From Diacronema lutheri (Eukaryota; Haptophyta; Pavlovophyceae; Pavlovales; Pavlovaceae), in NCBI GenBank assembly GCA_019448385.1, contig JAGTXO010000041.1, positions 62,001 to 126,000 of the forward strand: a DNA stretch of 64,000 nucleotides, written 5' to 3'. Numbering within the stretch: position 1 is the first letter of the stretch; the number at the start of each line of letters is the position of its first letter. The position numbers were made by a program, and so were the translations under genes. The notes under the pieces were generated by a model. The model did no database searches. It was not told the origin of the DNA and was given only the letters and a program-made list of their open reading frames with translations. Positions 11,873 through 32,600 of the stretch are shown here, in pieces.

Positions 11873-13297
11873 CTACACAGCTCTTCGCCCGTCATGGTCA
11901 GGCGTTGCGCGCAGCCTCCTCGGGCTGCGCGCCCACGCCGTGCGCCACGCGCTGCGAGCCAAGCGCTGCGTGCGCGCGCGCGCACTGGCAGCGTGTGCCA
12001 ACTCGCTCCGCGCGCGGCGGGCCCACGCCGACGCCCCGTCATCGCCGAGCCGGCGGGCCGAGCTGAGCGGTGGCTCGCGCGCAGGCGCGCCGGCATCCCG
12101 CGCGCCATGGATGCGTGCCGCAGGCGCGACGCGGTCCCCGCGCGCCGCCGCCGCGGCCGACGGTGGCTCTGCGCGTGGAATCGTGCTGGTCGCCGTGCTG
12201 TTCGGTGCCGAGCACCAGTGCGGTCCGTCGCCATCGTTGGGCGGCGACCAGCGCACCATGCCCGCGCAGCGCATGGCGTGCAACCAGAGCGTCACCTTGA
12301 CCGTGTTCACCTGCACGCGCTCCTGGTACTTTGCCCTGCCGCCCGCACCCTGGTAGTAATGTTGATACTTTGTGCCCAGGTCGCACGGGCTCGAGAAACC
12401 GTACAGCGACACGCGCTTGCACGCGGCGAGCGCGAACCACACGCCGATGTTGCCCGTAAGCCCGCCCGTCCCAAAGTTCTCGTACAGCGTGCGGTACACC
12501 TCCGGCTCGATCAGGTAGCGGCGCGGTGTCGCGCGCAGCGCGCGCTCAAAGACGACGCCGTTCTTGGCAATCTGTAGGAGCCGCCGCTCGGGCTGTGCGC
12601 GCAGGCGTGTTCCGGCATGCAGCGCGTTGAGGAGGAGGTATGTGGTGCGGTTGCCCACGAAGCGCGTGTACTTTGGCCCGCCCGTCGGGTGGTCGTTGAA
12701 GCGGATGACCGCCTCGTGCGCGTCGATCTCAGCGCCGAGCTCAGCAGCCATCAGCGATGGCGCGCCGCCCACGACTGCGCACGACTTGTGCGGGCGCCAT
12801 TCGCGCTGCACCGCAACGGTGGCAACGCCAACCTGCTGCGCGCGCGCAGCGTACGCGACGTACGCCTTCACCATCGTGTCGACGAAGCGGCGAGCGTTGT
12901 CGTGGCTCGCGATCGCGGCCTTCCACCGGCTGAGCACCGGCGCCGTGCCGTTCCAAAAGAGGCTCGGCAGCTGGCGGAGATGGCGAATCTGCTTGCGCAT
13001 GAAGCAGAGGTCAAACTGCACGTCTGGGCGGGCGGCGCCTTGCATCCCAACCTTGATCGCGTAGCGCGTGTTGACTGCGGCGTGCACCGAGCATGCGGTC
13101 GGCTGGTCGTCGAGCACGTCAAACGCGTACACCTGCTTTCCGCCGCCGCGTTCGGGCTTCGAGTGTAGGCGCAGCTGCGCCGTGTCGAGGAATAGGCGGC
13201 GTGACGCATTCAAACATGTCGCGAGCGGCGACGTAGCGCCCGCGCACCGCCCACACAGCATCGCAAGCGCGAACGTCGTCCTCAATTTTCGCCCCAT
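11873..13297 (-). CDS. GT29-family sialyltransferase-like protein
   Basis: The frame from ATG 13297 encodes up to 474 residues. A short basic head and hydrophobic stretch (about residues 8-20) fit a Golgi signal anchor. Sialylmotif L is visible as CAVVGGAPSLM followed by HEAVIRFNDHPTGG and FVGNRTTYLLLN. Motif S appears as GLTGNIGVWFALAACKRVSLYGF, and the HYY element follows. The arrangement is that of GT29, which transfers sialic acid or related sugars from CMP donors to glycan termini in the Golgi. The last 100 or so residues are Ala/Arg-rich and lack family character, so the true end may be earlier or after an unseen intron. Haptophytes are known to make sialylated glycosphingolipids, which makes the assignment plausible; donor and acceptor are unknown. 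It is convergent with the helicase gene. Confidence 0.82.
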   Translation of the reverse strand: MGRKLRTTFALAMLCGRCAGATSPLATCLNASRRLFLDTAQLRLHSKPERGGGKQVYAFDVLDDQPTACSVHAAVNTRYAIKVGMQGAARPDVQFDLCFMRKQIRHLRQLPSLFWNGTAPVLSRWKAAIASHDNARRFVDTMVKAYVAYAARAQQVGVATVAVQREWRPHKSCAVVGGAPSLMAAELGAEIDAHEAVIRFNDHPTGGPKYTRFVGNRTTYLLLNALHAGTRLRAQPERRLLQIAKNGVVFERALRATPRRYLIEPEVYRTLYENFGTGGLTGNIGVWFALAACKRVSLYGFSSPCDLGTKYQHYYQGAGGRAKYQERVQVNTVKVTLWLHAMRCAGMVRWSPPNDGDGPHWCSAPNSTATSTIPRAEPPSAAAAARGDRVAPAARIHGARDAGAPAREPPLSSARRLGDDGASAWARRARSELAHAASARARTQRLARSAWRTAWARSPRRLRATPDHDGRRAV

Positions 13298-13608: not shown

Positions 13609-13670
13609 GTACTTTTCGGCGCACGATGGCGTCTGCGCCGAAAAGTACGCCATCGCGCGCCGAAAAGTAC
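13609..13670. repeat. Near-perfect 26-bp inverted repeat with 10-nt spacer
   Basis: The left arm 13609-13634 and right arm 13645-13670 pair as inverted repeats with three mismatches: one internal and two next to the spacer. Each arm has GTACTTTTCGGCGC at its outer end. A third copy of the 14-mer (13635-13648) begins in the spacer, and a partial copy lies near 13558. The unit could form a cruciform or RNA hairpin. It has no matching copy that I found at the other side of the nuclease gene. Confidence 0.8.
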
Positions 13671-13827
13671 GCACCCATGGCACGCTGCATCATGCCGCCG
13701 CTTGCTTACGAGCGCCCCTGACATGATCCTTGAATGCCCCGGCGCTTGAGCCTGGAGTGGGCAAGTACACCTGTTGTGGCCCTGCTGCTTGCAGGCTTTG
13801 CACGCCTGAAGCTGTCGGCTCGATGCA

Positions 13828-13852
13828 GGGGGGGGGGGGGGGGGGGGGGGGG
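13828..13852. repeat. Homopolymer G tract, 25 bases
   Basis: An uninterrupted G run in noncoding DNA directly before the tandem duplication at 13863. Confidence 0.95.
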
Positions 13853-13862
13853 AATCAGGGAA

Positions 13863-13908
13863 GCAATGCCCACAGAAGAGCTCTGGCAATGCCCACAGAA
13901 GAGCTCTG
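13863..13908. repeat. Perfect tandem duplication of a 23-bp unit
   Basis: The unit beginning GCAATGCCCACAGAAGAG occurs twice without gap or mismatch. It could be a replication-slippage product or a footprint-like duplication next to a mobile element. Confidence 0.9.
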
Positions 13909-14014
13909 CCTCCTCGTCGCCCTGCCGCACGTCAGGAAACCTGACCGCTGTGTGAATGTGGCACGTGCGCACGGCGCACCTGTGGAAAGAAAGCCACCGT
14001 GTTTCGGAACGTGT

Positions 14015-16273
14015 TTAGCGTCGATACGGGTTGTGCCGACTGTCGGCGCAGGCGACGCGGCCCGCGGTCGCATCGAGCAACGCGTCGCTCAGCGCGCCTC
14101 GCGCCGCGGGCCAGCTGGCCGTCGGCGGCGTCGCGCTGGGCCTTGGCGGCTGCACGTGGGTGGCTGTGGACGCCTCGTCGGGCCAGCCTGGCCGGCAAGC
14201 CGCGCCGTCGCACGTCGGCGAGAGCGCGTCGTCCGTTGCACCTCCGCCGCTCCGACCCCGACCGCGACCGCGCCCGCCACTCGCGGCGCCGCGCGCGGCG
14301 GGCGCACCGCCCCCACCGCGCGCGCCGCCTCCACTGCGCGCGCCGCGCGCAGCGGCGCTGCCGCCGCTGCCGCCCTGGCTGCCGCCCTGGCTGCCGCGGC
14401 CGCCGCGGCCGCCGACGCCGCCGGCGTCGCCGCCTTCGTCGTCGCCGTCGTCGTCTTCGTCACCGTCGTCGCCGCCGCCGGCATCGCCGCCGCCGGCGTC
14501 CGCCGCTCCGTGGCGCACGTCGTGCGCGCGCTCCTGCTCGTAGGCCACGCCCCACAGCCGCGCGACCTTGACGAAGCGCGTGCGCTCGGACGTGATCTCG
14601 TCGCACCACTGCTCGCCGGCGGCATGGTGCGCGACCATGTCCAGGACGTCGTAGTAGCTGTTGCGCGCCGCCGTGAAGTCGCGCTGCAAGAAGGCGTTGC
14701 ACCCGGAGCAGAAGGCGATGCGGCGGACGCCGCGCTGCCCGCCGGTTGGACGTGCCACGCGCACCTTTGCGTGGTCGAGCTGGGCGCAGCAGCGCTCGCG
14801 CCGGCGCCCGCCGGCGGCGCCGGCATCGGCGCCAGCGGCGGGCGCCGCGGCGGCCGGCGGTCCGGCCGCAGCGGCGCCCCCCTCGCCGCTCGCAGCGCAG
14901 CCACCGCACGTCGCGTCGCGCGTCGCGGCGGGGCCGGCGGCGCGCGCCTTGGCGCGGAAGACCGAGCAGCACTTGCTCGACAGCGGCTCGGGCACAAACG
15001 TCGTCGCGACGCCGAGCTTGCGCAGCGCGCGCAGCAGCCCGACGCCGAGCGCAGGCGCGGCGCCGCGCGCAAAGCCGCCGCCGCGTGAGCGGTGGAGGAA
15101 GTCGCCGCAGGCGACGAGCAGCTGGTCCGGACGCAGCCCGACGTCCGTCGCGTGCGCCTTGACAATCCGCGCCGCCGCCGCCGCCGCCGCCGCGCGCCCG
15201 CACATGGCCGAGCGCGCGTTCGAGCGCAGCTGCGCCGGCGTCGCGTACACGGGCGCGGTCTCGGCGCGCACGCGCGCGCGCGCAGTGTTTAGGCCGAGCA
15301 GCTGATTCGCCTCGGTCGCCGTGTGTCCGACGTGCGCCGCGCGCAGCGCTGCCTCGAGCGACGCCGCCGTCGGGCCCGCGCTGGCGCCGCCGGCCGGTGG
15401 CACGCCGAGCGGCGCGTGGCGCCTGCGCTCAAGCGCCGCGCGCGCGCGCGCGTGGCCGGCGCGGTGCGCGCGCGCCGCCTGCGAGATGGTCACCGAGATG
15501 GGTGCGAGGCCTTGCCCGCCCGGCTCGTACGTCACCTGCGCGCGCGCGCCCGGGTCGATGACGACGAGCTTGAGCTTGTGCTCCTTGAGCGCCTCGCTCA
15601 GCTCGGCGGGCGTCGCGAGGTCAAGCGGCCCTTTCGGGTCGCGCCACCGGTCGAGGCAGGTGCGATCGCGCAGCGGTGCGGGCTCGAACACCCGAGCGAC
15701 GAGGTTCACCTTCTGCCCGTCACACAGCGCGTACAGCACGGGCTGCCGGCCGGCCGCCGCCTGCGCGGGCAGGGGCTCCGAAGCGACGTACGTCTCGCGC
15801 TCCGCCGCGGTGAGCGTGTTTGGCGGCAGCTCCTCGAGGGCGTAGCGGAAGGCGCGGATGGACACCTTGAAGAAGCGCGCAAAGGCGCGCATGCTCACGC
15901 GCGGGTCGCTCCACGGCCATTCTCTCGAGTCTTTCGGCCGCAAGCGCTCGCCCTCGGCGGTCACCAACGCGGCGAGCTCGGCGTCCAGCGCGTGCCGCTC
16001 GTCGGTGGTGAGGAGACGGTAGAGATCGCGCGCGTGGAACGCGACGCAGCGCGGCACCTGGTCGCTTCGCCTTGGGCAGATGGCGTGCGGCGGCGGCCTG
16101 CCACGGATGCGCGTGTAGAAGAGCGCGAGGCGCGCGACAAGAGCGACGCTCTCCGCTGCGGTGGCGGGCATCTTCACGCCCGCTTGGTCGGCCAGCAGCT
16201 GCACACAGGGCGCGCACGCAGCAGGCAAAACGGCAGGGTTTGTGGCGGCGCAAAGACGTGTCAAACATCGCAT
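14015..16273 (-). CDS. Fanzor/TnpB-like RuvC nuclease (putative eukaryotic RNA-guided endonuclease)
   Basis: One open frame of 752 residues reads from ATG 16273; M35 (16171) is an alternative start, better because a coding-like + segment overlaps the first 34 codons. RuvC-I is KLVVIDPGARAQVTYE with Asp240. At the usual RuvC-II glutamate position the sequence reads LLVACGDF, so Cys389 stands where Glu is expected. About 40 residues later FVPEPLSSKCC supplies Glu429 next to the TSK-like motif. RuvC-III is FLQRDFTAARN with Asp532, preceded by the zinc ribbon pair FCSGC (522, 525). The first zinc pair is imperfect (KCCSVF), and a low-complexity insert sits between the two halves. The N-terminal 230 residues are helical and unassigned. 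The C-terminal 160 residues are an acidic patch and then Gly/Arg-rich. Identification rests on motif order; an inactive copy is possible. Confidence 0.72.
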   Translation of the reverse strand: MRCLTRLCAATNPAVLPAACAPCVQLLADQAGVKMPATAAESVALVARLALFYTRIRGRPPPHAICPRRSDQVPRCVAFHARDLYRLLTTDERHALDAELAALVTAEGERLRPKDSREWPWSDPRVSMRAFARFFKVSIRAFRYALEELPPNTLTAAERETYVASEPLPAQAAAGRQPVLYALCDGQKVNLVARVFEPAPLRDRTCLDRWRDPKGPLDLATPAELSEALKEHKLKLVVIDPGARAQVTYEPGGQGLAPISVTISQAARAHRAGHARARAALERRRHAPLGVPPAGGASAGPTAASLEAALRAAHVGHTATEANQLLGLNTARARVRAETAPVYATPAQLRSNARSAMCGRAAAAAAAARIVKAHATDVGLRPDQLLVACGDFLHRSRGGGFARGAAPALGVGLLRALRKLGVATTFVPEPLSSKCCSVFRAKARAAGPAATRDATCGGCAASGEGGAAAAGPPAAAAPAAGADAGAAGGRRRERCCAQLDHAKVRVARPTGGQRGVRRIAFCSGCNAFLQRDFTAARNSYYDVLDMVAHHAAGEQWCDEITSERTRFVKVARLWGVAYEQERAHDVRHGAADAGGGDAGGGDDGDEDDDGDDEGGDAGGVGGRGGRGSQGGSQGGSGGSAAARGARSGGGARGGGGAPAARGAASGGRGRGRGRSGGGATDDALSPTCDGAACRPGWPDEASTATHVQPPRPSATPPTASWPAARGALSDALLDATAGRVACADSRHNPYRR

Positions 16274-16287
16274 CGCTGCCTCGCGTG

Positions 16288-16635
16288 ATGGTCGACGACG
16301 CCGACGAGGCCTACGCCATCATGGGCGACGACATGGTAATAAAGCGCGACGTGGCGGCGGGCAGCGCGTCGCCGCGGCGTTTCGCGCTGCTGATCGCGCT
16401 CGAGTGCGTGGACTTCGGCCAGCTCGTCGGCTCTCTCGTGCTCGACATTTGCCAGCCGCCCGGATACCCGCGCACTCTGGTGCGATCAGCAGCTGTGGAC
16501 CCTGTGCTGGCTCGGCCAGGGGCGCGTCCATGTTGGAATAAAAGTTCACCTCGAGCAAGCTGTCTTGGTCTGTCAAATCTGGAATCAGCCCGAGCTGTGC
16601 TCGCCATCCACGCACGATGTGACAAACGGGCATGA
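16288..16635 (+). CDS. Unassigned coding-like segment divergent from the nuclease gene
   Basis: The frame starting MVDDADEAYAIMGDDM has strong G/C third positions to about 16473 (...PPGYPRTL), after which GTGCGA could be a splice donor; the frame itself runs to 16635. The frame is also open and coding-like upstream (KDVSNIASLPRV), overlapping the antisense start of the nuclease gene. No family is recognised. It may be one exon of a host gene interrupted by the element, or part of the element. Confidence 0.3.
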   Translation: MVDDADEAYAIMGDDMVIKRDVAAGSASPRRFALLIALECVDFGQLVGSLVLDICQPPGYPRTLVRSAAVDPVLARPGARPCWNKSSPRASCLGLSNLESARAVLAIHARCDKRA

Positions 16636-16947
16636 ACCCGCTCACATTGCGCTTCGCGTAGGTGCACACGTGACAAACGTGGATGCACGGATACGTACCG
16701 CCAGAGCTTGAGGGCGGGATACCGTCAGACGTGCAAGGCTCACCTTCCACGTGTGACGCGAGCTGCTCAGCCTGCCCACCTGGTACAATTGTTCCGCGCT
16801 GTCGAGGAGGACCGTGCAGTGCTTGGCCATCCTTCCCGCGAGCTCCCGCGTGCCCTGCAGCCTCTTGACCAGATCGAACGGCACGCCTGGCATGAGCTGG
16901 TCTCGCTCCTGCGCGTAGCTCAGAGCGCTTAGCTGCTGCTTATTCAT
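16455..16947 (-). CDS. Unassigned two-exon coding-like segment
   Basis: From ATG 16947 the frame reads MNKQQLSALSYAQERDQLMP and continues with clear coding codon use to ...SSSRHTWK. A GTGAGC donor follows, and after about 150 bp a CAG acceptor restores frame in phase 0 at LGLIPDLTDQDSLLEVNFYS. The end is not resolved. The first exon is helical and charged. No family is recognised; it may be a host gene fragment next to the nuclease element. Confidence 0.35.
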
Positions 16948-17442
16948 CCACGTGCATGTGCACGCAGCGGAGCGCGGCGAGCGCACGCGCGTTGTGCATG
17001 AATATGCACAGGCGCGCACACCAAAACTCGTGTCGCACGCGCGCGACTCGCACACGCACACCACGCGCGCGCGTGACCTCGTTTACGGCGCGTGCAAACA
17101 CTCGAGCGACCACGCGCGCACGCGTAGTGCGCGTGCGCGCGCATGTGAGGTAGCAGCCGCGTGCGCTGGTGCATGTGGCCCACGCGCACTGCATCGCCCC
17201 TGCATCGCCCGCGCGTGCTCACCCGGCGCGCGCTCGCGCACTACCCTTGCGCGCCGCGCCGCGCGAGCCGATACGGCTCGCGGAATGCCGCCGCCGCCGC
17301 CGCCGCGCAACCGCAGCAGCCGCTGCGGCCTTCGGGCGGCCGCACGCCGGGCGCGCCGAGCGCCGCCGCCGCCGCCGCCGCCGCCGCCGGACCGCCGTCG
17401 CCGGCCGGCGGCGGCGGCACTGGCGGACGCCCGGCGCTGCTG

Positions 17443-17623
17443 GGCGGTGGAGCTGCGCGCGCGCGAGGTGCCGAGGGAGCGGCTGCGCGAATGCGTCGCG
17501 CTCGACCGGGAGATCTTCGCGGCGCCGGAGGGCCACGTGGGCCCGATGCAGCGGCGCCTCAACGAGTTCCCGCCGCTCGAGTTCCCGCCGCTACGAGCTG
17601 ATGCACGCGCCGATCGTGCTTGA
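17443..17623 (+). CDS. Possible terminal exon of an unknown gene
   Basis: The frame reading VELRAREVPRERLRECVALD, then DREIFAAPEGHVGPMQRRLN, has the strong G/C third-position bias of neighbouring genes and stops at 17623. It overlaps the last codons of the giant minus-strand gene tail to tail. The upstream part of the frame is low complexity. No start or family can be assigned. Confidence 0.25.
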
Positions 17624-20600
17624 CCAGAGGCTGTTCACCACCTCGGCGGCGTACGCGTTTGACGTGAGCCGATCCATGATGAATGGGATGATCGCGCTGA
17701 TCGCGATGATCAGTGGCTCCTGCGGTCGCGCGCGCGAGGCGCGCGAACGGCTCAGCCGGCGGCCGCGCGCGCGCGGACTCGCGCTGCGCGCGCGCGCGCC
17801 GCGCGCGGGGCTGCGCACTTCGACGACGAGCGTCTGCCATTCTGCGATCGTCCACGAGAGGAGCATGAGCCGCGTCTGCTCGGCGCCGATCAGCCGCGAG
17901 AAGGTGACGGCGACGAATGCCATGCCGGTGAAGACGCCCCACATGAGTAGCCACGCCATCGCGATGCGCACGCGCGGCGGCGGTGCGAGCGCGACGCTGA
18001 GCCTCGCGGCCCACTTGCGCCAGCCACGCTGCCTGCGCTCCATGCGCGTGCACGCCGCCTGCACCATCCGATCGTACCAGAGCACGAGCTCCTTGAACGT
18101 GATCTGCTCGTTCCCGTCCGCGTCGAGGGCGCGGCCGAGCAGCGCCGCGCGGCTGCGCGTGAGCCGAAAGCCGACCTCCTTGAGAAGCTCGCGCAGCTCG
18201 GACGCGTCGATACGGCCGGAATCGTCCTTGTCGTACTTGCGGAACTTTGCGCGCAGCCGCACGACGACCGCGTCGGACAAGCTGTGCTCGTGCGCGTCCA
18301 CCCTGAGCTCGCCGAGCAGCGCAGAGCTGCGCGGGAAAGGTCTGCCCGACGCGGCCTGCGCGGCCGGGACGACCGGCGGCGCGGCGGGCAGGACGAACGC
18401 GACGCCGTCCGCCGAGGGCACCGGCTTCGCGTCCGAGCCCGCGCACGGCTCTGGCGGCGGCGGCTTTGGCGGCGGCGGCTTTGGCGGCGGCGGCGCCGCG
18501 CCTGCGGCAACCTGCGGCGGGCGCATGGCCGGCGCGGGTGGCGGGCTGCCGGCGGGCGGCGGCGGCGGAGGCGGCATGCGCGGTACGCCGCGCACCCCGC
18601 CGTCGCCCAGCCCGCGCAGTGGGAGTAGCAGCTGGGTGCCCTCGACGGCCTGCCGAATGCTTGGCGACACACGGCGCGGCGTGGGCGAGGTGGGCAGCGC
18701 GCTCGCCTGCAGCACGCGCGGCTGCGGCGCTGGCTTTGGAGGCGGTGGCGGCTGCTGGCGCGCGGCGCTCGCGCCGGCCGCGCCGGGCGGCAGTGGCGGC
18801 GTCGGATCGGGTGGCGCGGGTGGTGGGTCGGCGGGCAGCGCGCGCGAGGGTGCGGGCGGCCCGCCGACCTGGCTCGCCGGCATCGCCGCCTCGCCCTGCG
18901 CGCCGGGCGGCGCGGCGTGCTCGCATCGCTCGAACGAGGCGCGCGTCTCGTCGCGCGCGCGCACGACCGCAGCGGGCAGCGCCTGCTCGTTCGCACCAAC
19001 GCGCGACGACGCGCGCACCGCGCCTGCGAGCTGCCTCCTTGGCGAGTCGGATGCGGAGAGCGAGGACAAGAAACCGCGCGTGGGCGAGCCAGAGGCGCCC
19101 ACGTACACGGGCGAGCCACACGCGCCCGTTGAGTCGTCGGCAGGCGCCGCCGACGCTGGCGCGATGCACGCAGCCGCCGATGCGGCGGTCGCTCGCGGCA
19201 CGACGCGCTCGCGAGCATATTGCGCGCCCGGTGAGGCCGTTGGCGGCGCGGGCTTGGCGTGCAATGCCGCGTCGCGCCGCGCCTCGGGCTCGACGGCCGT
19301 CGCGGCCGCGGCCGGCGCGGCGTACTTGGCTGCCGCGCGGCTGCGCGCGCGCGACGAGACCCTGCGCGCGGCGGCGTCCGTCAGCCCGGCGTCGAGCGAC
19401 GCCCTGCGCACCGCCTCACGCCTCTTCAACTCGTTGAGCACCGCGTCCTCCTGCCCGTCCACGTCGATGGCCGAGAAGAAGCGCGCGACGACTGGTACGT
19501 TACGTCCGTAACTGTGACGCGCGCCGGCGCCGCACGGCGCGTGCGCACAGTGCGTGTCAGCGCACGCGCGCGCGCGCCCCTCGGCGTGCAGGCGCCATCG
19601 TGGGCGCGCGCGCTGTGCGCGTCGCGCGCACCCGAGGGTGAAGACGAGCTTGAAGAGGACGACAGCCGGGATGCACAGCGCCGAAGTGATCGCCGCGACG
19701 ATGAGCAACTGCACCACGTTGATCGAGACGAGCGGACGCGGCGCCTGCTCGTCGACGCCGACGGACGCGCTGCCGCTCGTCGGCTGATAGAGCATGCACT
19801 CGATGACGAGGCCGAGCATCACGAGGCACCAAAAAGTTTGGCACAGCTCAGCGCGATGGACACCATCTGCGTCTCCGAACCACAGGCCAAGGACCGTGTG
19901 CTCGCTCTCGACGGCCGTGATAACCTGACGGCGTAGCCACGCGAGCGTCTGCTCGGTGCGCGCCTTGAGTCGGCGCGGCGCGGCCGACCCGCCGCTGCCG
20001 CCCACGCCAACGCCCAGCTGCGCGTGGCTGCGCCTGCGCGCGAGAGCGCCGCGCACGTGCCGCTGCACTGCGATGACCGCTCGCTCCGCGCGCGCCTTGT
20101 CCTGCTCGGCAAGCGTGTCGATCCGCACCTTGAGCTCGTCGGACGCCGATCCAACTTCCTTGAGCAGCGCGCGCGCGCGCGCCTCGCGCCGCTTCGCGAC
20201 CTGCCTCCTCTCGTAACGGTCGCGCGCGCAGAAGGCGAGCATCGACGCGCAGTTGGCGGCGGCGAGCGCGAGGACGAGCGAGTAGACGTACGGGTTCTCA
20301 TCAAAGTCAAAATCGGTGATCGCCGCGACGAACTGCTCGCCCGAGAAGGTGTTCACCCTGACCGCCTCCGCGTCCGCCTGCGCCTCCGCAAGGCTCGACG
20401 GCACCGTGACGCCGCCAAACGACGTGAGGTGCGTGCACGCACACCATAGGAGGCCATCCTCGGCACCGGACGGCGGCGCGACGGTCCGGCACCCGCGCAT
20501 GCTCCACACGCCGAGCGCCTCGTCCCAAAAGCGGCACTGCGGCACGAGCGCGCAGTTTGCGCCCGAGAAGCGCGGCGCGCACGCACACGCACCCTGCACG

Positions 20601-23600
20601 CACGCGCCGCGCCCGGAGCAAAAGTTGTACTCGCGGCAGTCGCCCGCGGCGCCGGGTTGCGCCTCGTTGGGCGGCTGCGGCGCGAGCGGGATCGAGACGA
20701 GCAGCGGCTGGCTCAGCCCCGAGATGTCGAGCTCCGACGCGTCGCCCGCCGGCAGCAGCGCGACGGTGAAGACCGCTGTCTGCAACGGGCCCAGACGCAC
20801 GGCGCCGCCGTCCGCGGTCGGCGGCGCGCCCGCGCCCGCCGCCTGCGCGGTCGGCTCGCCGAGCACGTTGCGCTCGAAAGCGTAGAGCACCACATCCACG
20901 CCGTCATCGACCACGCCCGCTGGCTGGCCGTTCAAGATGGCGGCGGGCAGCGAGACGCCACCGGTCGTGCCGGGCGCGCCCACGTTGGAGGCCGCAATTT
21001 GCGCGACGGTCGCGCGCGCGGCGGACACGTTGACGCCGGCGCCGAGCGCGCTCGAGCCCTCGCCGCTCGCCGTGCCGCTCAGCAGGCTCGCCGCGAGGCC
21101 CTTCGCCGCGCCGGTCGCGCCGTCCGCCACGCTCGCCGCCTCGGCCTCGTTCAGGCCGCTCGCCGCCGAGCCGAGCGCGGCGTCAAGCGCACCGATCACG
21201 CTCGCGGCCGTGGCCTCGTCGACGCCGTCCTCGCGCGAGGCGTTGACGAGGCTGGCGAGCTGCCCGAGCCCCGCGGCCTGCGCGCCGCCGCTCAAGCCCG
21301 CACCGCCGCCCGACGCCAAGCCAGCGTCGAGGATGGTGAACAGGACGCTCGCCGATTGCTTGCGCGAGATCGGCGTCGATGCGCTGCTGCTCGCGGCGGA
21401 CGCGCTGACCAGCAGCATGCGCTCGACGACACCCGCATCGGCACTCGTGCCGTTGGCCTGCAGCCTCCGGCCGAGCAGCGCAGCCGAGCCGCCATCGCCC
21501 GCCGAGCAGTTGGTCGTGTTGCCGCCGAGCGCGGCTATGGCGGCCAGCAGCTGGTTGGCCCTGCCCGCGTTGCCGATGAGCACGGCGGTGCTTGCCGCAT
21601 CGAGTGCGCCGCGCACCGTCTCGCAGTCCACGTGCGCGGGCGCGTCGACCTGCACGACGCGCGCCTCGGACGCGGCCGCGCCGTAAAAATCGCTCACCGT
21701 CACGCCGAGCTCGATCTCGCCGGCGGGCAGGTAGGTCCTCGTGTTGGACGAGAGCTGGCGCTCGCGCAGCGGCTGCGCAAAGGGCGCGCCCGGCAGCCGT
21801 GCGTCGAAGAGGTAGAGAAGCGGCAGGTCCTCCGTATCATCCGTCCATGCGCTCGCCGACATGTGAAACAGCGTGTGCAGCGCCACCCCGCCGCTGAGCG
21901 GCGCAACGACGAGCTGGCCGCCGTAGGGCGGGCGATTGACCACGACCTCGACCGAGGCGGTCGCGGACTGGCCCGCGCCGCTCACCGTGAGCTCGAAGAC
22001 GTACAGCGCGCTCGCGGTGAGCACACCCGACCGCAGCACCAGGTTGGGGCCGGAGGCGCCCGTCACCGTCACCGCCGCGTCGTCGGCGAGGTCAAGGCTG
22101 GCGTCGACGCGCGCGAGCGCGCCCTGTCCGTCGCTGCCTCCGACGGCGGTGAACGCGCGCCACGCGTAGCTCCATTGCACGAGCCCGGCTGCCGCGTCCG
22201 CCTCGGCCCGTGCGTCGAGCGACGTGACGATGCGCAGGGCGTCGACGGGCCGTGACCAGGTCGGGTTCAGCTTGATCGCGGTGAGGGGCTCGATCAAAAT
22301 GGACGGCACGTCGGCGGGCACGACGCGCACACGCACGGCTGCGCTCGCCGGCGCGAGCCCAAACTGGGACGACGGCTTGGAGAGCGTCAGGCTCGCGACG
22401 TAGAGGTCCGCGGGCAAGCTGCCCGCGCCGAGCGCGAGCGCGCGCGCCGAGCCGTCGACGCCCGTGGGCAGCGCGATCGGCTCGGCACTGCCCACGAGCT
22501 CGTCGGTTACGCGCGCGAGCGCCCACGAGAAGACAAGGCCGCTGTCCACCGAGCTCGACGCGTCGTCGAGCTCGTTCGGGTCAAAGGAGGCGGACGCGTC
22601 AATCTCGAACGGTGCGCGCGACGAGACCGTACGGTCGCCGCCAGCGATGCGCGGCACGAGCGGCTGCGCCGCGACGCTGACGCGCGCGGCGGCGGTGGAG
22701 AGCGTCGCGGTCGGGTCCGCCGCCATCCGCGCGCTCAGCTGGAACGTGTACACCACGCCGACGGAGAGCGTGAGCGGCGGGAGCGACAGCGCCGGGAGCG
22801 ACGTTTCGCCGAGCACGGGCACGGGCGCGCGCGCCGCGTCGCCCGACCCGGCGACAGCGTCCTCCGTGGCAAGGAGCTCCCACGCAAAGAGGATCGTCGC
22901 GTCGTCCAACGTCCAGCACGACGCGAGCTCCGCGCGCCCCTGCAGCAGCAGCGTGGCGGACGGGCGCGCGACGAGCTCGGAGGGGCCATCAATCTCGAGC
23001 GAGGGCGCGGCGAGGCCGTTACGCGTCACCGCCCACTCGAGCACGTCGCTACGCACGCCGAGGAAGGACGTGACCTGCAGCAGGAAGACGAAGGAACTGC
23101 CGACGGACAGGTCGATCTCGAGCAGCGCCGCGCCCGGCCCGTCGAGCGCCCGGAGGCGCGCGTTGAGCGCGGGCGCGTCGTCCGAGCGGCCCGGGTCGAC
23201 GCGCCATGCGTACGATGGCAGCGCGATGCCCGCGGCGAACGAGGCGCTCGCGTCGAGGCGGAGCGTTGAGCGCGGGCAGTTGCTGATCTGGCGCGGCCCG
23301 CTCAGCGCGGCGACGGGCTGTGCGCAGCTCGCTGCGCCGCACGCCTCGTCGATGTCGATGCGCGCGGACGAGGCGGCGCAGAGCGCGGCCGTGCAGCTCG
23401 AGGCAAGGTTCGCGGGGCCAAGCGCGCCTGGCCGAACGCCAATCGTGTCGCCGGGGCGAAGCGCGGTCAGCGCGTTGAGCTGCGCCAAGAGCAACGTGTC
23501 CGACCGCCAGAAGCAGATCGGCGCGCTCGCCGAGCTGCCGCGTAGCCGCGCGACGGTGGCGTCGTCCAGCACGCGCGCGCACGGCTGCGCGCCAAACATG

Positions 23601-26600
23601 CGCGCGCGGTCGGTGGGCTGCGGGTCGAAGTGGACGAGGAGCTGCGTGGCCTGCGGCGAAAAGGCGGCCAAGACGATCTCAGGCGAGTGCAGCCCGCGCA
23701 GCGTGAAGAGCGGCGCGCTCGCCCCGTCGGCGGGCGCAAATTGCACGCCGTTGAGCGCAACCGTCACGCGCACAGGACCCTCAGCGCCCCACGCCGCCTC
23801 CTGCACGATGAGCGTGTCGCTCACCGAGACGGGCGGGCCGGCGACGACCGGTCCAAAGCGCACGCGCAGCAGCGCGCGCAGCGCCGCGACGCTCGCGCCG
23901 TCCGCCACGCCCGCCGCGCCCGCGAGGCGCTCGAAGCCGGAGCCGACGATCGTCGTGATGGTGCCGCCATCCGCACTGCCCTCCGGCGGCGAGATGGCTG
24001 TGACGGTGGGCTGGCGATAGTAGTAGAAGGTGCGGCCGCTCGACGAGAACGAGCCATCGAGCCCGCCGCTCAGCGTCAGCTCGACGCCGACCGCGCCCGC
24101 GCGCCCGCTCGCGCGCGCTGGCGTCACGCAGCGCGCGCGCGTCGCGCCGCCGACGGGCGCCAGCAGCGTCGCGGGCGCGTCGCACCGGCACGCGCGGCCA
24201 AATGAGCAGCAGAGCTGCCCCGCGCCGAGCGCGCGGAAGCCCGTGCCCGTCAGCGTGAGCGCCGTGCCGCCCGTGACGGGCCCGCCCGGCGGGCTGAGCG
24301 CGGCAACGGTGATGAGCCGCGCGTCGTACAAGTAGAAGGAGGCGGACTCGAAGAAGGCAGGCACGAGGTCGAGGCGGTTAAGCGAGAGCGAGACGGTGTA
24401 CGCGCCGTCCGACGCGGTCGCCGCGCCTGGCGCCGAGCACACCACTGAGCTCGCGCTCACGAAGGCCGCACCCACGCTGATCACCGCCGAGCCGTCGGCC
24501 GCGGCGTAGACGCACGACGGGCCGCCGGGCAGATCGACAAAGCCGCTGCCCGTGAGCGTAAGCGCGCTCTGCGCGCCGAGCGGCGCGCCGAGCGGCACGC
24601 CCGTGCGCACGGCCGCCGTGTAGAAGGTGAGCGCCAGCCCGGTCGGCACAAAGGCCTGGCCGTCGAGCGCAACCTCGATCGGGACGGCCTGAGGGCTTTG
24701 CTCGTTAGGCGAGACGACGGGCGCGGCGCACACAACCTCGCCGCCGCCTTGGTCGGGCATCGTGGCGCTCACGTCGCGGTCGCCGCTCGCCAGCTTGAAG
24801 CGCACCGCGAGCGCGCCGTAGTCAACGAGCCCGCCGCCGCGCACGGTGACAAGCGCGCCGGCCGCGCCTTGCGGCACGCCGGCGGGCGCGATCGCGCTTG
24901 CGAAGATGAGAGCGCTGTCATAGACGGCAAAGTCGTTCGAGACGACGATCGGCTCGCGCGGCAGGCCGGTCACGTCCGACAGCTCCTCCGCGACCAGCGA
25001 GAGGGGCATTGCGCCCACCGTTAGCAGCGCGGGCAGCGCGCAGACGATCTGCCCCACGGAGACAGACACGACGGGCACCCGTTCGCCGCTGCCGAGGGCG
25101 CACCGGAGGATCGCCACCTTGGCGATGGCCTGCGCGCCAAAGCCGCTGCCAAAGACTGTCACGGACGTCGCGCGGCCGAGCGCCGCGCCCGTCGGCACGA
25201 GCCTCGTGATCGTCGCGCTCGCGAAGGGATCGGACGGGAGCGTGGCAGAGAGGCTGACGCTGTCGACCAACCGAAAGGCGACGGCCGAGCCGGCGCGCGC
25301 GAAGCGGTAGCAGAGGCGGAGGCCGGCGCTCACCTCGCCAATGGAGAAGGACGCGCCGCCGCCCGCCTGCACCACCGCGCGCGCGCCTCCGCCCACCGTC
25401 GAGCCGGCCGACGCGGCGGCGCACGCGGCGGCGGCCTCCGGTGCGCTGCCCCCCACCCACACGGCCTCGTCGCCCGCGCCGACGCCGACGCCGGTGAAGG
25501 TGAGCGCGAACGGCTCGGCACGCACCGCCACGCTGGCGAGCGGTCCCGTCACCTCGAGCACGTCGATCGAGAGCGCGGGGTAGGCGACGAAGGGCTCGGC
25601 GCCGAACGCATAGCAGAGCGCGTACCCAATGCCGCCCGCGCCTCGCCGCATTTCAAACGAGGCGCGCGCGGACGTGACGGTCTGCAGCCCGCCGAGCATG
25701 GCGAGGGGCGGCACGGCGGCGCAGCTCGTCGTGCCGCGCGGCGCCCAGTACGCGCGGTCGCCGTTCGCCACGCCCACGCCGTCGAAGCCGACCTCCATGC
25801 TCTCCCCGACGCTGCCCACCGGCGCGTTCGGCGTGACGAGCGCGACAAGGCCGAGCACATCAAGGGTGATCGCCGGGTAGTGCGCATACGGCTTGGTGCG
25901 GAATCGGTAGCACAAACTGAGGCCGAGTTGGCGCGCCGTCGGCCGGAACGGCGCCGCGCTCGCCGCGCCGACCGCGAGCAGCCCGCCAAACGCCGCCAAC
26001 GCAATCGGCCCGCCCGCCACGTCGGTGCACTCGGCCGCGGATACGACCCACAGCGCCGAGTCGCCGGACGCGAGGCCAACGCCGCTGAAAACGAGCGGCT
26101 CGCGCGTGCCCGCGACGGCGACCGTGCGCGCGGGCCCCTGCACCTCCGCGACCACCAGGCGGATGGCCGTGTAGAGCACGAACGCCTCCTCCGCGCCAGC
26201 GTGTCGGTAGCACAGCCGCGCGTCGCGCACGGCCGAGTCGAAGGCGAACGCGGCGGTCATGTTGGCCGAGAGCTGCGCGGCGGGGCCGACAAAGCCAACA
26301 GCGCCCGCGTCGCCCGCCTGCGCGCAGCTCGCGCCGCCTGCCGCGTCGACCGCCACCCAGCGCGCGACGTCGCCCGCGCGCACGCCGACGCCAGCAAAGG
26401 CGATCTCCTCGGCAGCCGCGGCGCGCGCGAGCGCGAGGGAGTCGAGCGGCTCGCGCACTTGCAGCACGTCGAGCGTCAGGTTCGCGTGCAGCGCGAACGG
26501 CTCGCCCGCGAACGCGTAGCACAGCCGCAGGCCGAGCGCGCCCTCGTCAAACGCGAAGCGCGCCGTGCCGTCCGCGCCGACCGGCACGCCAAAGGCAGCC

Positions 26601-29600
26601 GCGTCCGCGCAGTCGGCCGCGGCCGCATCAACCCACGCGGCAGTGTCGCCCGCGCCGACGCCGTGGCCGACGAATGCGATCGTCTCGGGCACGCTCGCGA
26701 CGAGCGTCGACGCGATGGGGCCGCTCAGCCCGAAAACGCTCAGCCGCACACCGGCAAACGGAGCAAACGGCCGGTCGCCAAACGCGTAGCACAGCTGCAG
26801 CCCGGCGATGCCCGCGGACGCGGACGTGCGCTCGAAGAGGAAGCGCGCGCGCGCGAGGCCGTCTGCGCCGACGGTGACAGGCTGCACGCCGCCGAGACCG
26901 GCGCGCACCTCCGCGAGCGCGTCGTTGCACGCGCCGGCGCTTGCCGGCAACCACTGCGCGCGGTCGCCCGTGGCGAGGCCGACGCCGCGGAGGGTGAGGA
27001 GTTTGGGCGCGTCGCGCACGGCGACCGAGCGCGCGGGCGAGCTGATGCCGAGCACGCGCAGCTGCACCGCCGGCCACAGCGCGCGCGGCTTGCCGCTGAA
27101 CTTGTAGCAGAGCCGTGCGAGCCCCGCCGGCGTCGGCGCGGTCGGCGCAAAGAGGCCGACCGCGCCGCCCTGCGCGATGCGCACTTCGCCGCCGAGCGCC
27201 GCGTCGATCTCGCCCGCCGTGCACGCGGCCTGCAGCGCGCGCAGCGCGTCGGCTTCGGGCAGCGACGCGTTCGGCGCGAGCCACGCCGCGCTGTCCGTCG
27301 CGCCGACGCCAAGGCCGAGCCCTTGCAGGGCGATCGGCGCGCGCACGCCCGCGACCGCGGTCGTGAGCGCCGGCCCGCTGACGAGGTACGTGGCGAGCGC
27401 GACGAGTGACACGTCGAGCACCTGCGCGAACGCGCCGCCCCGCCGTGCGAAGCGGTAGCACAGCACGAGGCCCGCCGGCGCGGGCAGCTGGATGGTGAAC
27501 GCAATCGACAGCGACGCGCTCACGTTGAGCAACCCGCCGTACGCGCCGTCGGCCGAGGCCGTGGCGCAGTCGGCGCCGCGCGCTGCCCAGAAGGCAAGGT
27601 CGCTCGCTTCGAGGCCAACGCCGTCGAGCGCGAGCACCTCCGCCGCCCCAACGACGGCAGCGCTTGGCCTGCTCGGCGACGTGACCCCCAACGCGTCCGC
27701 GCGCACGGCGCCGAACGGCGCGAACGGCGCGTCGCTCTCGTTGCCGAAGCGGTAGCAGAGCGCCATGCCGAGCGCGGGCGTGGCGAATGTGAAGATGGCG
27801 ACGCCACCCTCGCTCACCACCGCCTCTGCCGCCGCGCTCTCGGCGCAGCCGGCTGCACCGGCGCGCACCCAGCGGGCACGGTCGCCCGCGCGCACGCCGA
27901 CGCCAGCAAACGTGACGCGCTGCGCGAAGCCGGCGAGGGCTATCGTGCGCACGGGCGAGCTCACCGCGAGTGCGTCCGCCACCCACGCGCTGTAGAGCGC
28001 GAACGGCTCGGTGCGCAGCCGGTAGCACAGCCGCAGGCCGCGCGCGCCCGCCTGCATGGCGAAAAGCATCGCCATGTCTGCGGCCAACGGCCGCTGCTCG
28101 CCGCCCAGCGCTACATCGGCGGCGGCGGCGCAGTTGGCGGCGTCAGCGCGCACCCACTTTGCGCTGTCCGCCACCGAGAGCCCAACGCCGTTGAGCTGCA
28201 GCCGCGCAGCCACGCCCGCGACCGCGCGCAGCGCAACGTCGCCGGCGCCGTCGAGCGCGGGCGCACCGATCGGAGGCTCGCCGAGCCCGAGCACGTCAAG
28301 CGTCAGGTTGGCGTACAGCCGGTACGGCTCCCCCGCAAACGCGTAGCAGAGCACGAGGCCCGGTGCCAGCTGCTCGAACGCAAAGGTGGCGCGCGCGCCG
28401 CTCAACAGCTGCTCGCCTCCCAGCGCGTCGTCGGCCGGCGTGGCGCAGTCCTCCCCACCCGCACGCAGCCACTTGGCCGCATCGCCAGTAGAGACGCCGG
28501 TGCCAGAAAAGCGGATGTCGGTGGGCACGCCGCGCGACGCGTACGACCGTCCCGAGAGCGATGCGACTTCAAAGACGTCGAGGAGCAGCTGCGCGTCGAG
28601 GGCAAACGCATTATCGGCCAACCGCCTGCAGCACAGCCGGTAGCCGTAGCCGGCAAGGGACGCGGTGAAGAGCGCACGCCCGCCCGCGTCGAGCAGCTGC
28701 AGCCCGCCCAGCTCGGCTCGGGGCGCGGCGCCGTCGCACGTGCCGTCCAACACGTCCAAGTGCGCCGCCCAGAACAGCTCCGAGCCCTCGGTCAGTCCGC
28801 GCAGCTGGGCGCCCACGTCGACGAGCTCGGCGACGCCCACGACCGCCGTGACGACCGTCGCGTTCTCGCGCTTGGGTGGCGGCGGACTCGGTGGCGGCGG
28901 GCGGGGCGGAGGCGGCGGGCTCGGCGGCGAGAGGGGCGGCGGGCTCGCGGGCGGCGACGGGCTCGGCGGCGGCGGCGGGCGCGGCGGCGGCGGATTGGGC
29001 GGCGGCGGTAGCAACGGTGGCGGCGGGCGCGGCGGCGGCGGGCTGGGCGGCGGCGGCGGCGCGCTCGGAGGCGGGCTGGGCGAATTGACGAAGGCGCACA
29101 GCTCCGCGCCGCCAAAGAGCGCGCCCGACTCGTAGTTGAAAGCGGCAGCGTCCGTGCAGCCCGGGAGGATCTCACGGGGGCTGTGCACGAGCTGGAGCTG
29201 CACTGCGCCCTCAAGCTCCGCCCTCGCGCTTACAAGCACGGCGAGCACGTCGGACAAGGTGCCCGCCGTGTCCGGCTGGTACACGGACGCGACGACGAGC
29301 ACCGCCGGATCGGCCGGAGGCGAGGGCGGCGCGGACGCGCTAGCCTCCTGCAAAGCACGCCGCGCGGCCAGCTCGCGTGCCGCGACTTGGGTCAATCTCA
29401 CACCATCCTGCTGCGCGCCCGTCAGCCGAACTATCGTAGCGAAGAGTGCGCCGAGCTGCGGCGCGGTGAGGCTTGGCGCGCTGGCCTCGAAGGCAAAGAG
29501 AACGTGCACGACGCGGCCCGGCGGCGAGGGCGGCGGTGAGGGCGGCGGGCTGGGCGGTGAGAGCGGCGGCGGCGGCGAGGGCGGCGGCGAGGGTGGCGGT

Positions 29601-32600
29601 GACGACGGCGGAGGCGAGGGCGGCGGTGACGGCGGCGGCGCCGGTGGCAGGGGTGGTGGGAAAGGCAGCATGCGCGGCGGAGGCGGCAAGCTGGGCGGCG
29701 GGCTGGGCGGCGGCGGGCTGGGCGGCGGGCTGGGCGGCGGCGGGTTGGGTGGCAGGCTGGGCGGTGGCGGGTTGGGCGGCGGGCTGGGCGGCGGGCTGGG
29801 CGGCGGACGAGGCGGCGGGCTAGATGGCGGTGGGCTTGGCGGCGGGCTTGGCGGCGGGCTCGGCGGCGGGCTCGGCGGCGGGCTGGGTGGTGGACTTGGC
29901 GGCGGGCTTGGCGGCGGGCTTGGCGGCGGGCTGGGCGGTGGGCTCGGCGGCGGGCTCGGTGGCGGGCTGGGCGGTGGGCTGGGAGGTGGACTGGGCGGCG
30001 AGCTAGGCGGCGGGCTTGGCGGCGGGCTGGGCGGCGGGCTGGGCGGCGGGCTGGGCGGCGGGCTGGGTGGCGGGCTCGGCGGCGGGCTGGGCGGCGGCGA
30101 GGGCGGCGGGCTTGGTGGCGGGCTTGGCGGAGGACTTGGCGGAGGGCTAGGCGGCGGAGACGGTGGCGGACTCGGCGGCGGAATGGGCGGCGGGCTGGGG
30201 GGCGGGCTTGGCGGCGGGCTCGGCGGCGGGCTGGGTGGCAGGCTCGGCGGCGGGCTGGGCGGCGAGCTGGGCGGCGGGCTGGGCGGCGGGCTCGGCGGCG
30301 GGCTGGGCGGCGGGCTTGGCGGCGGGCTGGGCGGCGGGCTGGGCGGCGGGCTGGGCGGCGGGCTTGGCGGCGGGCTCGGCGGCAAACTGGGCGGCGGCGA
30401 GGGCGGCGGGCTAGGCGGCGGGCTCGGCGGCGGGCTGGGCGGTGGACTGGGCGGCGGGCTGGGCGGCGGGCTGGGCGGCGGGCTGGGCGGCGGGCTGGGC
30501 GGCGGGCTCGGCGGCAGGCTGGGCGGCGGCGAGGGCGGCGGGCTAGGCGGCGGGCTTGGCGGCGGGCTTGGCGGCGGACTCGGCGGCGGATTCGGCGGTA
30601 AACTCGGCGGCGGGCTTGGCGGCAAGCTCGGTGGCGGGCTAGGCGGCGTACTTGGCGGCGGGCTTGGCGGTGGCGAGGGCGGCGGGCTGGGCGGCGGGCT
30701 GGGCGGCGGGCTGGGCGGCATGCTCGGTGGCGGACTCGGCGGCGGGCTGGGCGGCGGCGAGAGAGGCGGGCTGGGCGGTGGGCTGGGCGGCGGGCTGGGT
30801 GGCGGGCTGGGCGGCGGGCTCGGCGGCGGACTCGGCGGCGGGCTGGGCGGCGGGCTGGGCGGTGGACTGGGCGGCGGGCTGGGCGGCGGGCTGGGCGGCG
30901 GCGAGGGCGGCGGGCTGGGCGGCTGGCTGGGCGGCGGACTCGGTGGCGGGCTGGGCGGCGGGCTTGGCGGCGGCGAGGGAGGCGGACTGGGTGGCGGGCT
31001 GGGCGGCAGGCTCGGCGGCGGGCTTGGTGGCGGACTGGGCGGCGGACTTGGCGGCGGGTTGGGCGGCAAGCTTGGCGGCGGCGAGGGAGGCGGGCTGGGT
31101 GGCGGGCTGGGCGGCGGGCTCGGCGGCGGGCTTGGTGGCAAGCTGGGCGGCGGGCTGGGCGGCGGGCTGGGCGGCGGGCTGGGCGGCGGGCTGGGCGGCG
31201 GGCTGGGCGGCGGGCTCGGCGGCGGCGAGGGAGGCGGGCTGGGTGGCGGGCTGGGCGGCAGGCTCGGCGGCGGGCTTGGTGGCGGCGAGGGCGGCAGGCT
31301 GGGCGGCGGGCTCGGCGGCGGGCTGGGCGGCGGGCTCGGCGGCGGGCTGGGCGGCGGGCTTGGTGGCGGCGAGGGCGGCAGGCTGGGCGGCGGGCTCGGC
31401 GGCGGGCTGGGTGGCGGGCTGGGCGGCGGGCTGGGCGGCGGGCTTGGTGGCGGGCTGGGCGGCGGGCTGGGCGGCGGGCTGGGCGGCGAACTCGGCGGCG
31501 GGCTCGGCGGCGGGCTCGGCGGCGGGCTGGGCGGTGGACTGGGCGGCGGTGAGGGTGGCAAGCTTGGTGGCGGACTCGGCGGCGGGCTGGGTGGCGGGCT
31601 CGGCGGCGGGCTGGGCGGCGGGCTGGGCGGCGGCGAGGGCGGCGGGCTGGGCGGCGGGCTGGGCGGCGGGCTTGGCGGCGGGCTTGGCGGCGGCGAGGGC
31701 GGCGGGCTTGGCGGCGGGCTGGGCGGCAGGCTCGGCGGCGGGCTTGGTGGCGGCGAGGGCGGCGGGCTGGGCGGCGGGCTGGGCGGCGGGCTGGGCGGCG
31801 GGCTGGGCGGCGGGCTGGGCGGCGGGCTGGGCGGCGGACTCGGCGGCGGGCTGGGCGGCGTACTGGGCGGCGGGCTGGGCGGCGGGCTTGGCGGCGGCGA
31901 GGGCGGCGGGCTGGGCGGCGGGCTGGGCGGCGGGCTGGGCGGCGGGCTTGGTGGCGGGCTTGGCGGCGGGCTGGGCGGCGGGCTGGGCGGCGAACTCGGC
32001 GGCGGGCTCGGCGGCGGGCTCGGCGGCGGGCTGGGCGGTGGACTGGGCGGCGGTGAGGGTGGCAAGCTTGGTGGCGGACTTGGCGGCGGGCTGGGTGGCG
32101 GGCTGGGCGGCGGGCTGGGCGGCGGGCTGGGCGGCCGCGAGGGCGGCGGGCTGGGCGGCGGGCTGGGCGGCGGACTCGGCGGCGGGCTGGGCGGCGTACT
32201 GGGCGGCGGGCTGGGCGGCGGGCTTGGCGGCGGCGAGGGTGGCGGGCTGGGCGGCGGGCTGGGCGGCGGGCTGGGCGGCGGCGAGGGCGGCGGGCTGGGC
32301 GGCGGGCTGGGCGGCGGGCTGGGCGGCGGGCTGGGCGGCGGGCTGGGCGGCGGGCTGGGTGGCGGCGAGGGCGGCGGGCTGGGCGGCGGGCTGGGCGGCG
32401 GGCTCGGCGGCGGGCTTGGCGGCGGGCTTGGCGGCGGCGAGGGCGGCGGGCTCGGTGGCGGGCTGGGCGGCAGGCTCGGCGGCGGGCTTGGTGGCGGCGA
32501 GGGCGGCAGGCTCGGCGGCGGGCTTGGTGGCGGCGAGGGCGGCAGGCTGGGCGGCGGGCTCGGCGGCGGGCTGGGCGGCGGGCTTGGCGGCGGGCTGGGT

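Follow-up and report, generated by a model that had tools for sequence, protein, structure and literature searches.

A 5'-truncated Fanzor1-like gene fragment within a terminal-inverted-repeat element of the haptophyte Diacronema lutheri, most likely a nonfunctional relic

Does the 752-codon open frame on the minus strand at positions 14015 to 16273 of the DNA analyzed here encode a whole RNA-guided nuclease of the Fanzor (eukaryotic TnpB) type, or is it what is left of one? The window, by which we mean the entire 64,000-nucleotide stretch under study (positions 62,001 to 126,000 of contig JAGTXO010000041.1 from the haptophyte alga Diacronema lutheri), contains stops in frame 1 when the same interval is read on the plus strand. 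An earlier note on this DNA had recognized ordered RuvC-I, zinc ribbon, and RuvC-III motifs in the 752-residue frame, and all of these are indeed present in that order, as VVIDPG (D240), PEPLSSKCC (E429, SS432), C435/C436, C495/C496, FCSGC (C522/C525), and QRDFTAARN (D532). The motif that it described as TSK-like is instead SSK, and residues 1 to ~38, which it had counted as Fanzor, come from another element (see below). A Gly-rich stretch (40 Gly in 90 residues) occupies residues ~591 to 680; the Gly/acidic/Arg tail is not peculiar to this gene, because similar tails occur in two families of relatives from the same genome (families B and C, below). A loose RuvC/zinc ribbon pattern, composed after the family had been seen, had a single match when all six frames of the 64-kb window were searched, none in 300 residue shuffles of these frames, and one in 20,000 shuffles of the ORF.

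Searches of the genome (43,492,796 bases in 103 contigs) recovered at least 148 matches to the PF07282 profile with 150 of 306 candidates scored, and these divide, by score and by the loci read, into family A (TSQDCSKC type) and the large family B. DNA comparisons (40 of 230 candidates scored) further delineated family C, with ~70% identity to the window sequence, and a small set, W, to which the window copy belongs; all family counts are lower bounds. Sequence comparisons make the window ORF a homolog of TnpB/Fanzor proteins by way of these relatives in the same genome, and the case rests on them because the window protein taken alone scores 14 to 15.1 bits against PF07282 (E = 0.058), below the Pfam cutoff of 26.3. 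Members of family B (27.4 to 28 bits) and family A (40 bits) pass this cutoff, and family C (18 bits) fails it. Hence, the profile search that had been proposed as a check misses with the window protein itself and succeeds with an aligned relative, the 570-aa family B protein P0002, which matches PF07282 with 28 bits and aligns to the window protein with 33% identity over 522 aa (E = 2e-43). Likewise, phmmer searches with the window protein retrieved a family C open frame (2.7e-80) and a family B open frame (7.5e-41), and a profile of the window, C, and B proteins aligned with the family A profile in hhalign with 97.5% probability (E = 8.4e-12) over a region spanning RuvC-II to RuvC-III. On the basis of the phmmer and P0002 alignments, together with the shuffle counts, we reject a chance match to the motifs.

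Matches to more remote reference sets are weaker. The window protein had no match in NCBIfam, and its one match in the PDB was at chance level, with no significant match to a solved structure. The profile of window, C, and B proteins gave six weak PDB matches (E = 0.6 to 0.74), with names of the OrfB/IS605 or transposase kind. Family A has Cas12m as its best profile match (E = 0.036) and reaches SpuFz1 at E = 0.29, as the fifth of five matches. PADLOC assigned Cas12f matches to families B (E = 0.0065) and A (1e-7) and gave only a weak irrelevant match with the window protein, and the NCBIfam guided_TnpB model (cutoff, 100 bits) scored 24.5 bits with family A and 14 bits with family B, with no match for family C.

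Fanzors are distinguished from most TnpB proteins by a DPG at RuvC-I and by a glutamate situated six residues before the zinc finger (PMC10711439), and both traits are found in the window ORF (DPG at 240 to 242; E429 relative to C436). The search pattern given in that work, with 120 to 160 residues between the DPG and the Glu, plus CxxC pairs, is not matched by the ORF, which has 186 residues in this interval and a split first Cys pair. The motif given in PMC3627910, D-X(125,275)-[TS][TS]-X-X-C4-X(5,50)-RD, does fit, with 191 residues from D240 to S432-S433, followed by K-C and C436, and an RD five residues after C525. In the zinc ribbon, the second pair (C522xxC525) is in place, and the first is formed by C436 and C495/C496 rather than by a CxxC. 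In an alignment of the window protein with one family C and one family B protein, C436, C495, C522, and C525 are invariant columns, and the aligned B and C members have the same split knuckle, which thus looks like a trait of the clade rather than a sign of decay. We also considered F439, at the place of the second knuckle Cys, as such a sign and rejected it, as this position is occupied by Pro in the aligned family B protein and by Leu in that of family C. The configuration of the core, with its DPG at RuvC-I, its Glu six residues before the first zinc ribbon Cys, and its RD at RuvC-III, is like that of the Fanzor1 proteins SpuFz1 of Spizellomyces punctatus and GtFz1 of Guillardia theta (PMC10711439). 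Unlike these, the window copy has no upstream part, a first ribbon pair that is not CxxC, and a long low-complexity tail. With TnpB (OrfB) of IS200/IS605 and IS607 elements it has the RuvC/zinc ribbon core in common, and it differs from them in the alternative position of the Glu and in its eukaryotic host.

Comparison with the closest copies reveals how much of the parent gene is missing. By BLAST, the other Fanzor copies share only 14030 to 16160 of the window, with 96% identity over 2131 bp to the copies on contigs C42 and C36 and 89.5% over 2130 aligned bp to that on C33; base-level alignment carries the similarity to about 13998, across an 87-base gap. The identity to the C42 and C36 copies ends at 16160, while these copies run on upstream and are 97.6% identical to each other over 4863 aligned bp, past the 5' break of the window copy and as far as the C42 sequence was retrieved. 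Upstream, the C42 locus contains an open frame of 2369 aa, and the region resembles, by eye, the family B/C sequence around HTT.YFL, which suggests that the N-terminal part of the Fanzor is encoded there; a stop interrupts the C42 frame in this region. The part missing from the window copy would accordingly be the N-terminal WED/REC region. At the other end, from which a guide RNA would be expected to come, the window copy stops short of the C42 element by ~46 bases, as counted by eye. A genome search for further copies, suggested earlier as a way to define the ends of the element, therefore yielded for the C42 and C36 copies a 3' terminus of their own and further upstream sequence, both of which the window copy lacks. 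Folding gave no sign of a structured guide RNA, as the folds of three related element ends (z-scores of -1.03, -0.14, and -0.13) were no better than those of shuffles. We also do not claim a retrocopy: an ~87-bp GT..AG-like stretch of C42 is absent in the window, but the alignment there leaves a single C out of register, and inspection by eye shows no poly(A).

The sequence on both sides of the Fanzor segment (Table 1) matches an unrelated element, here called H, which has terminal inverted repeats of ~55 bp. Query bases 1 to 123 are 98% identical in DNA to the H copies on C74 and C71 (40 of 230 candidates scored). These two copies are without the Fanzor segment, show no match to the W segment or to family B, and have ~360 bp of other sequence between their matching H blocks. 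Short sequences are common to the window, C42, and C74 at both joins, CGCAG at the 5' one and TGGC at the 3' one. As the open frame crosses the 5' join, its codons 1 to ~38 are H sequence; a one-base difference in C74 just before the join places the matching H stretch in another frame, so that coding by H at this point is putative. The surrounding H copy is decayed: no full H inverted repeat was found in the window at up to 8 mismatches, and only short cores occur, at 13609 to 13670. The region from 13.6 to 17.3 kb thus matches dispersed elements, and the proposal that the gene sits in mobile-element sequence is borne out by H on both flanks and by Fanzor copies elsewhere. Next to the end of the H match at 17285, positions 17286 to 17577 show 79 to 80% similarity to the flanks of two copies of family C (L043 and L047). 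Further out on the minus strand are, on one side, an open frame of 5890 aa that contains a long PPPSPPPS repeat (17591 to 35263) and, on the other, a gene for a glycosyltransferase family 29 protein (sialyltransferase) at 11876 to 13297 (PF00777; E = 2.3e-18).

TABLE 1 Window positions of the Fanzor-like segment, its motifs, and the adjoining H sequence
Feature	Position	Strand	Basis
Fanzor-like segment: RuvC-I, RuvC-II, zinc ribbon, RuvC-III, acidic/Gly-rich tail	14015..16160	minus	Last coding part of a W-family Fanzor; BLAST 14030-16160
Codons 1 to ~38 of the open frame, from element H, non-Fanzor	16161..16273	minus	DNA identity to C74/C71, base-level alignment
RuvC-I Asp D240 (DPG)	15554..15556	minus	Opposite DPN (family B) and DPG (family C) in the 3-member alignment
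Alternative RuvC-II Glu E429	14987..14989	minus	Six residues before the first zinc ribbon Cys; invariant in the 3-member alignment
RuvC-III Asp D532 (RDFTAARN)	14678..14680	minus	RD..AAR invariant in the 3-member alignment
Zinc ribbon with split first knuckle: C436 ... C495/C496 ... C522xxC525	14699..14968	minus	3-member alignment
Low-complexity tail: acidic, then Gly/Arg/Ala-rich	14018..14503	minus	Composition; families B and C have similar tails
Element H, 3' side of the captured segment: blocks 13674-13826 and 13886-13996	13674..13996	minus	80 to 81% and 86% identity to C74/C71
Element H, 5' side: blocks 16151-16465 and 16755-17285, with ~290 bp between them unmatched	16151..17285	minus	89 to 90% identity to C74/C71

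We therefore favor, at a probability of roughly 0.77, the view that the ORF is a 5'-truncated Fanzor1-like gene fragment captured in H and that, having neither the upstream coding part nor the 3' end, it is most likely a nonfunctional relic. A fragment comprising the RuvC core, zinc ribbon, and low-complexity tail would have been taken up by a copy of the unrelated element H, each join having a short shared sequence, and the open frame would happen to run from H across the join. In the complete relatives, by analogy with characterized Fanzors, the protein would bind an RNA from the 3' end of the element and cut matching DNA. The homology, the truncation, the chimeric makeup, and the longer relatives are observed in the sequences, and the route by capture, the loss of function in this copy, and the activity of the relatives are inferred from them. 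Pack-type elements are terminal-inverted-repeat transposons that capture gene fragments. Like them, H is a terminal-inverted-repeat element that carries part of a foreign gene internally; unlike in them, the piece in H stems from the nuclease of another mobile element.

Selective constraint bears directly on this view and on its strongest competitor, an expressed chimeric gene of H and Fanzor parts with a retained use, e.g., as an RNA- or DNA-binding regulator devoid of the nuclease recognition lobe. We computed dN/dS for five sequences (10 pairs), leaving out the C33 copy, in which the motifs are split over two frames, and the C89 copy, which is partial and has Asn for the RuvC-I Asp. The values were 0.65 for the window versus C42, 0.60 for the window versus C36, 0.98 for C42 versus C36, 1.0 within family C, and 0.72 to 0.75 for W versus C, where silent sites are near saturation. 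As 38 of the 59 changes between the window and C42 are replacements (binomial P = 0.14), neutral drift of the window copy is not rejected. Against its being a relic, the window copy retains an open frame and all of the catalytic residues (D, E, and D), and its dN/dS of 0.60 to 0.65 is below 1, a combination with which weak constraint would be compatible; furthermore, the 5' join falls, by eye, at an apparent splice acceptor of C42, which could make for a spliceable chimeric gene. The single frame that spans the join, together with these kept residues and ratios, is what speaks for a gene in use; however, the ratios are not clearly off neutrality, no annotated protein equal to the 752-aa ORF was found among the 8000 candidates scored per search, the frame of the matching H stretch is shifted in C74, and the H copy around it is decayed, so that we regard such a gene as improbable.

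Less probable still is the reading from which this study set out, a mobile element's Fanzor nuclease gene that is complete and active. The D-E-D residues, the zinc ribbon cysteines, and the uninterrupted frame are what such a gene would have, but the ORF is not among the annotated proteins in those same searches, the upstream part and the parental 3' end are gone, and H adjoins the segment on both sides, with the first ~38 codons foreign. What stands of the earlier note is thus that an alga has a Fanzor/TnpB homolog here, within mobile-element sequence; the gene for an RNA-guided nuclease is not whole. Least probable, if only slightly more so, is that H is the natural carrier of a Fanzor as its regular gene and the window holds a degraded H-Fanzor transposon with no capture involved: in seven other H copies, ~2.3 kb replaces a 258-bp stretch of C74, and the one that was read, on C5, shares 93.9% identity over 1826 bp with family B in its middle, but this is a piece of family B in rearranged order (by eye) and the window insert is of the W family. 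H has thus taken up Fanzor sequence on more than one occasion. Moreover, the nearly identical copies on C42 and C36 extend further upstream and possess a 3' terminus of their own, and C74 and C71 showed no match to either kind of insert.

The captured fragment leads to a wider Fanzor system in D. lutheri that is more notable than the window gene. The published assembly of strain NIVA-4/92 comprises 43,502,671 bp in 103 contigs with 73.25% GC (PMC8379373). Across the last 1300 bp of family B (e.g., loci L009, at C1:1-6000, and L076), 40 of the 40 matches scored (883 candidates at first look) are identical at a rounded 100%, and its exact 30-base 3' terminus occurs in 193 copies (88 forward and 105 reverse), with 0 for the reversed control. 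No inverted pairs of these termini are evident by eye among the places listed, which are a part of the 193, and the flanks differ in all eight cases read; a hairpin followed by a terminal TATAC is found in families C and W as well. The family B Fanzor is preceded by an open frame of 4504 aa that contains a chromodomain (PF00385, E = 1.7e-12; L009:3415-3567 and upstream, on the minus strand of C1) and, further upstream, a lambda-exonuclease-like match (TIGR03033, E = 2.2e-5, at 24.6 bits below its cutoff of 68; YqaJ, E = 0.022). Between the chromodomain and the Fanzor N-terminal region, there is no stop on C1 and one stop on C29, and on C47 the chromodomain and the first N-terminal motif share one frame in which the later motif was not found. 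Because 73% GC makes long frames cheap, a single giant family B protein is only a candidate. No transposase was recognized, and no Rep or helicase was detected by Pfam in the open frames scanned. We tentatively suggest, as a possibility well short of even odds, that the window fragment stems from a clade of giant Fanzor elements, represented by its most abundant member, family B, with its chromodomain and Fanzor N-terminal region in one frame, its lambda-exonuclease-like nuclease upstream, and its at least 193 identical 3' termini, which would be recently or currently mobile and encode an RNA-guided nuclease directed to particular chromatin.

Some observations on the assembly belong here. Contigs C1, C6, C12, C26, C29, and C92 (at their starts) and C71 and C86 (at their ends) stop at the 3' terminus of family B or no more than ~25 bases from it, which probably reflects assembly breaks at this repeat; these are 8 of the 19 contig ends read, six of the 19 having been picked for their family B matches. 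Telomere-like repeats vary by contig, with CCCCTA at C9, CCCTCA at C75, and CCCTTA-like units at C36 (ends L066, L067, L070, and L074). The annotated protein KFE25_000685 (P0001; contig C89) is a fusion of a WD40/Utp12 protein with a portion of a Fanzor copy and is probably a gene-model artifact.

Several features of this system have precedents. CRe-1, CRe-2, and CRe-3 of Chlamydomonas reinhardtii are Helitron2-like Fanzor1 elements, of which CRe-1 is 5'-truncated and overabundant at its 3' end (PMC3627910). The D. lutheri families resemble them in being of high copy number and often 5'-truncated with the 3' end kept, and in having a hairpin near that end; they differ in that the frames scanned are without a Pfam Rep or helicase and the termini end in TATAC, and the window copy has lost its terminus. 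CMe-1A of the red alga Cyanidioschyzon merolae numbers ~150 Fanzor copies that are ~80% identical to their consensus (PMC3627910), a comparable number in one alga; family B, in contrast, is near identical. The same work describes Fanzor genes in viruses of Emiliania huxleyi and Phaeocystis globosa, and neither high copy number nor a link to haptophytes is therefore new with D. lutheri. Three scans of viral contigs yielded no relative of the window ORF: one gave no pattern match, and none of the 48 stretches from the second or the 1 stretch from the third was confirmed.

In the literature retrieved on Fanzor in haptophytes, there was nothing but a CRISPR review, and Fanzor was absent from the term counts of the papers listed on Diacronema, Emiliania, the Pavlov- taxa, and giant transposons, a nonexhaustive set, as PMC3627910 covers both Fanzor and Emiliania. 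A mention of D. lutheri Fanzors in a supplement is possible. No Fanzor-chromodomain fusion was apparent from titles and the beginnings of abstracts in the literature on Fanzor, transposons, and chromodomains, and the term "transpos" occurs 0 times in the main text of the D. lutheri genome paper (PMC8379373). The split zinc knuckle and the link to a chromodomain are testable departures from the Fanzors as described in PMC10711439 and PMC3627910. By itself, the window copy adds one decayed Fanzor fragment, yet it leads to numerous, partly near-identical Fanzor elements in a cultured alga. The effect of Fanzor on transposition in the host has been termed mysterious (PMC3627910), and these near-identical copies would permit direct tests of the role of Fanzor in transposition in a natural host.
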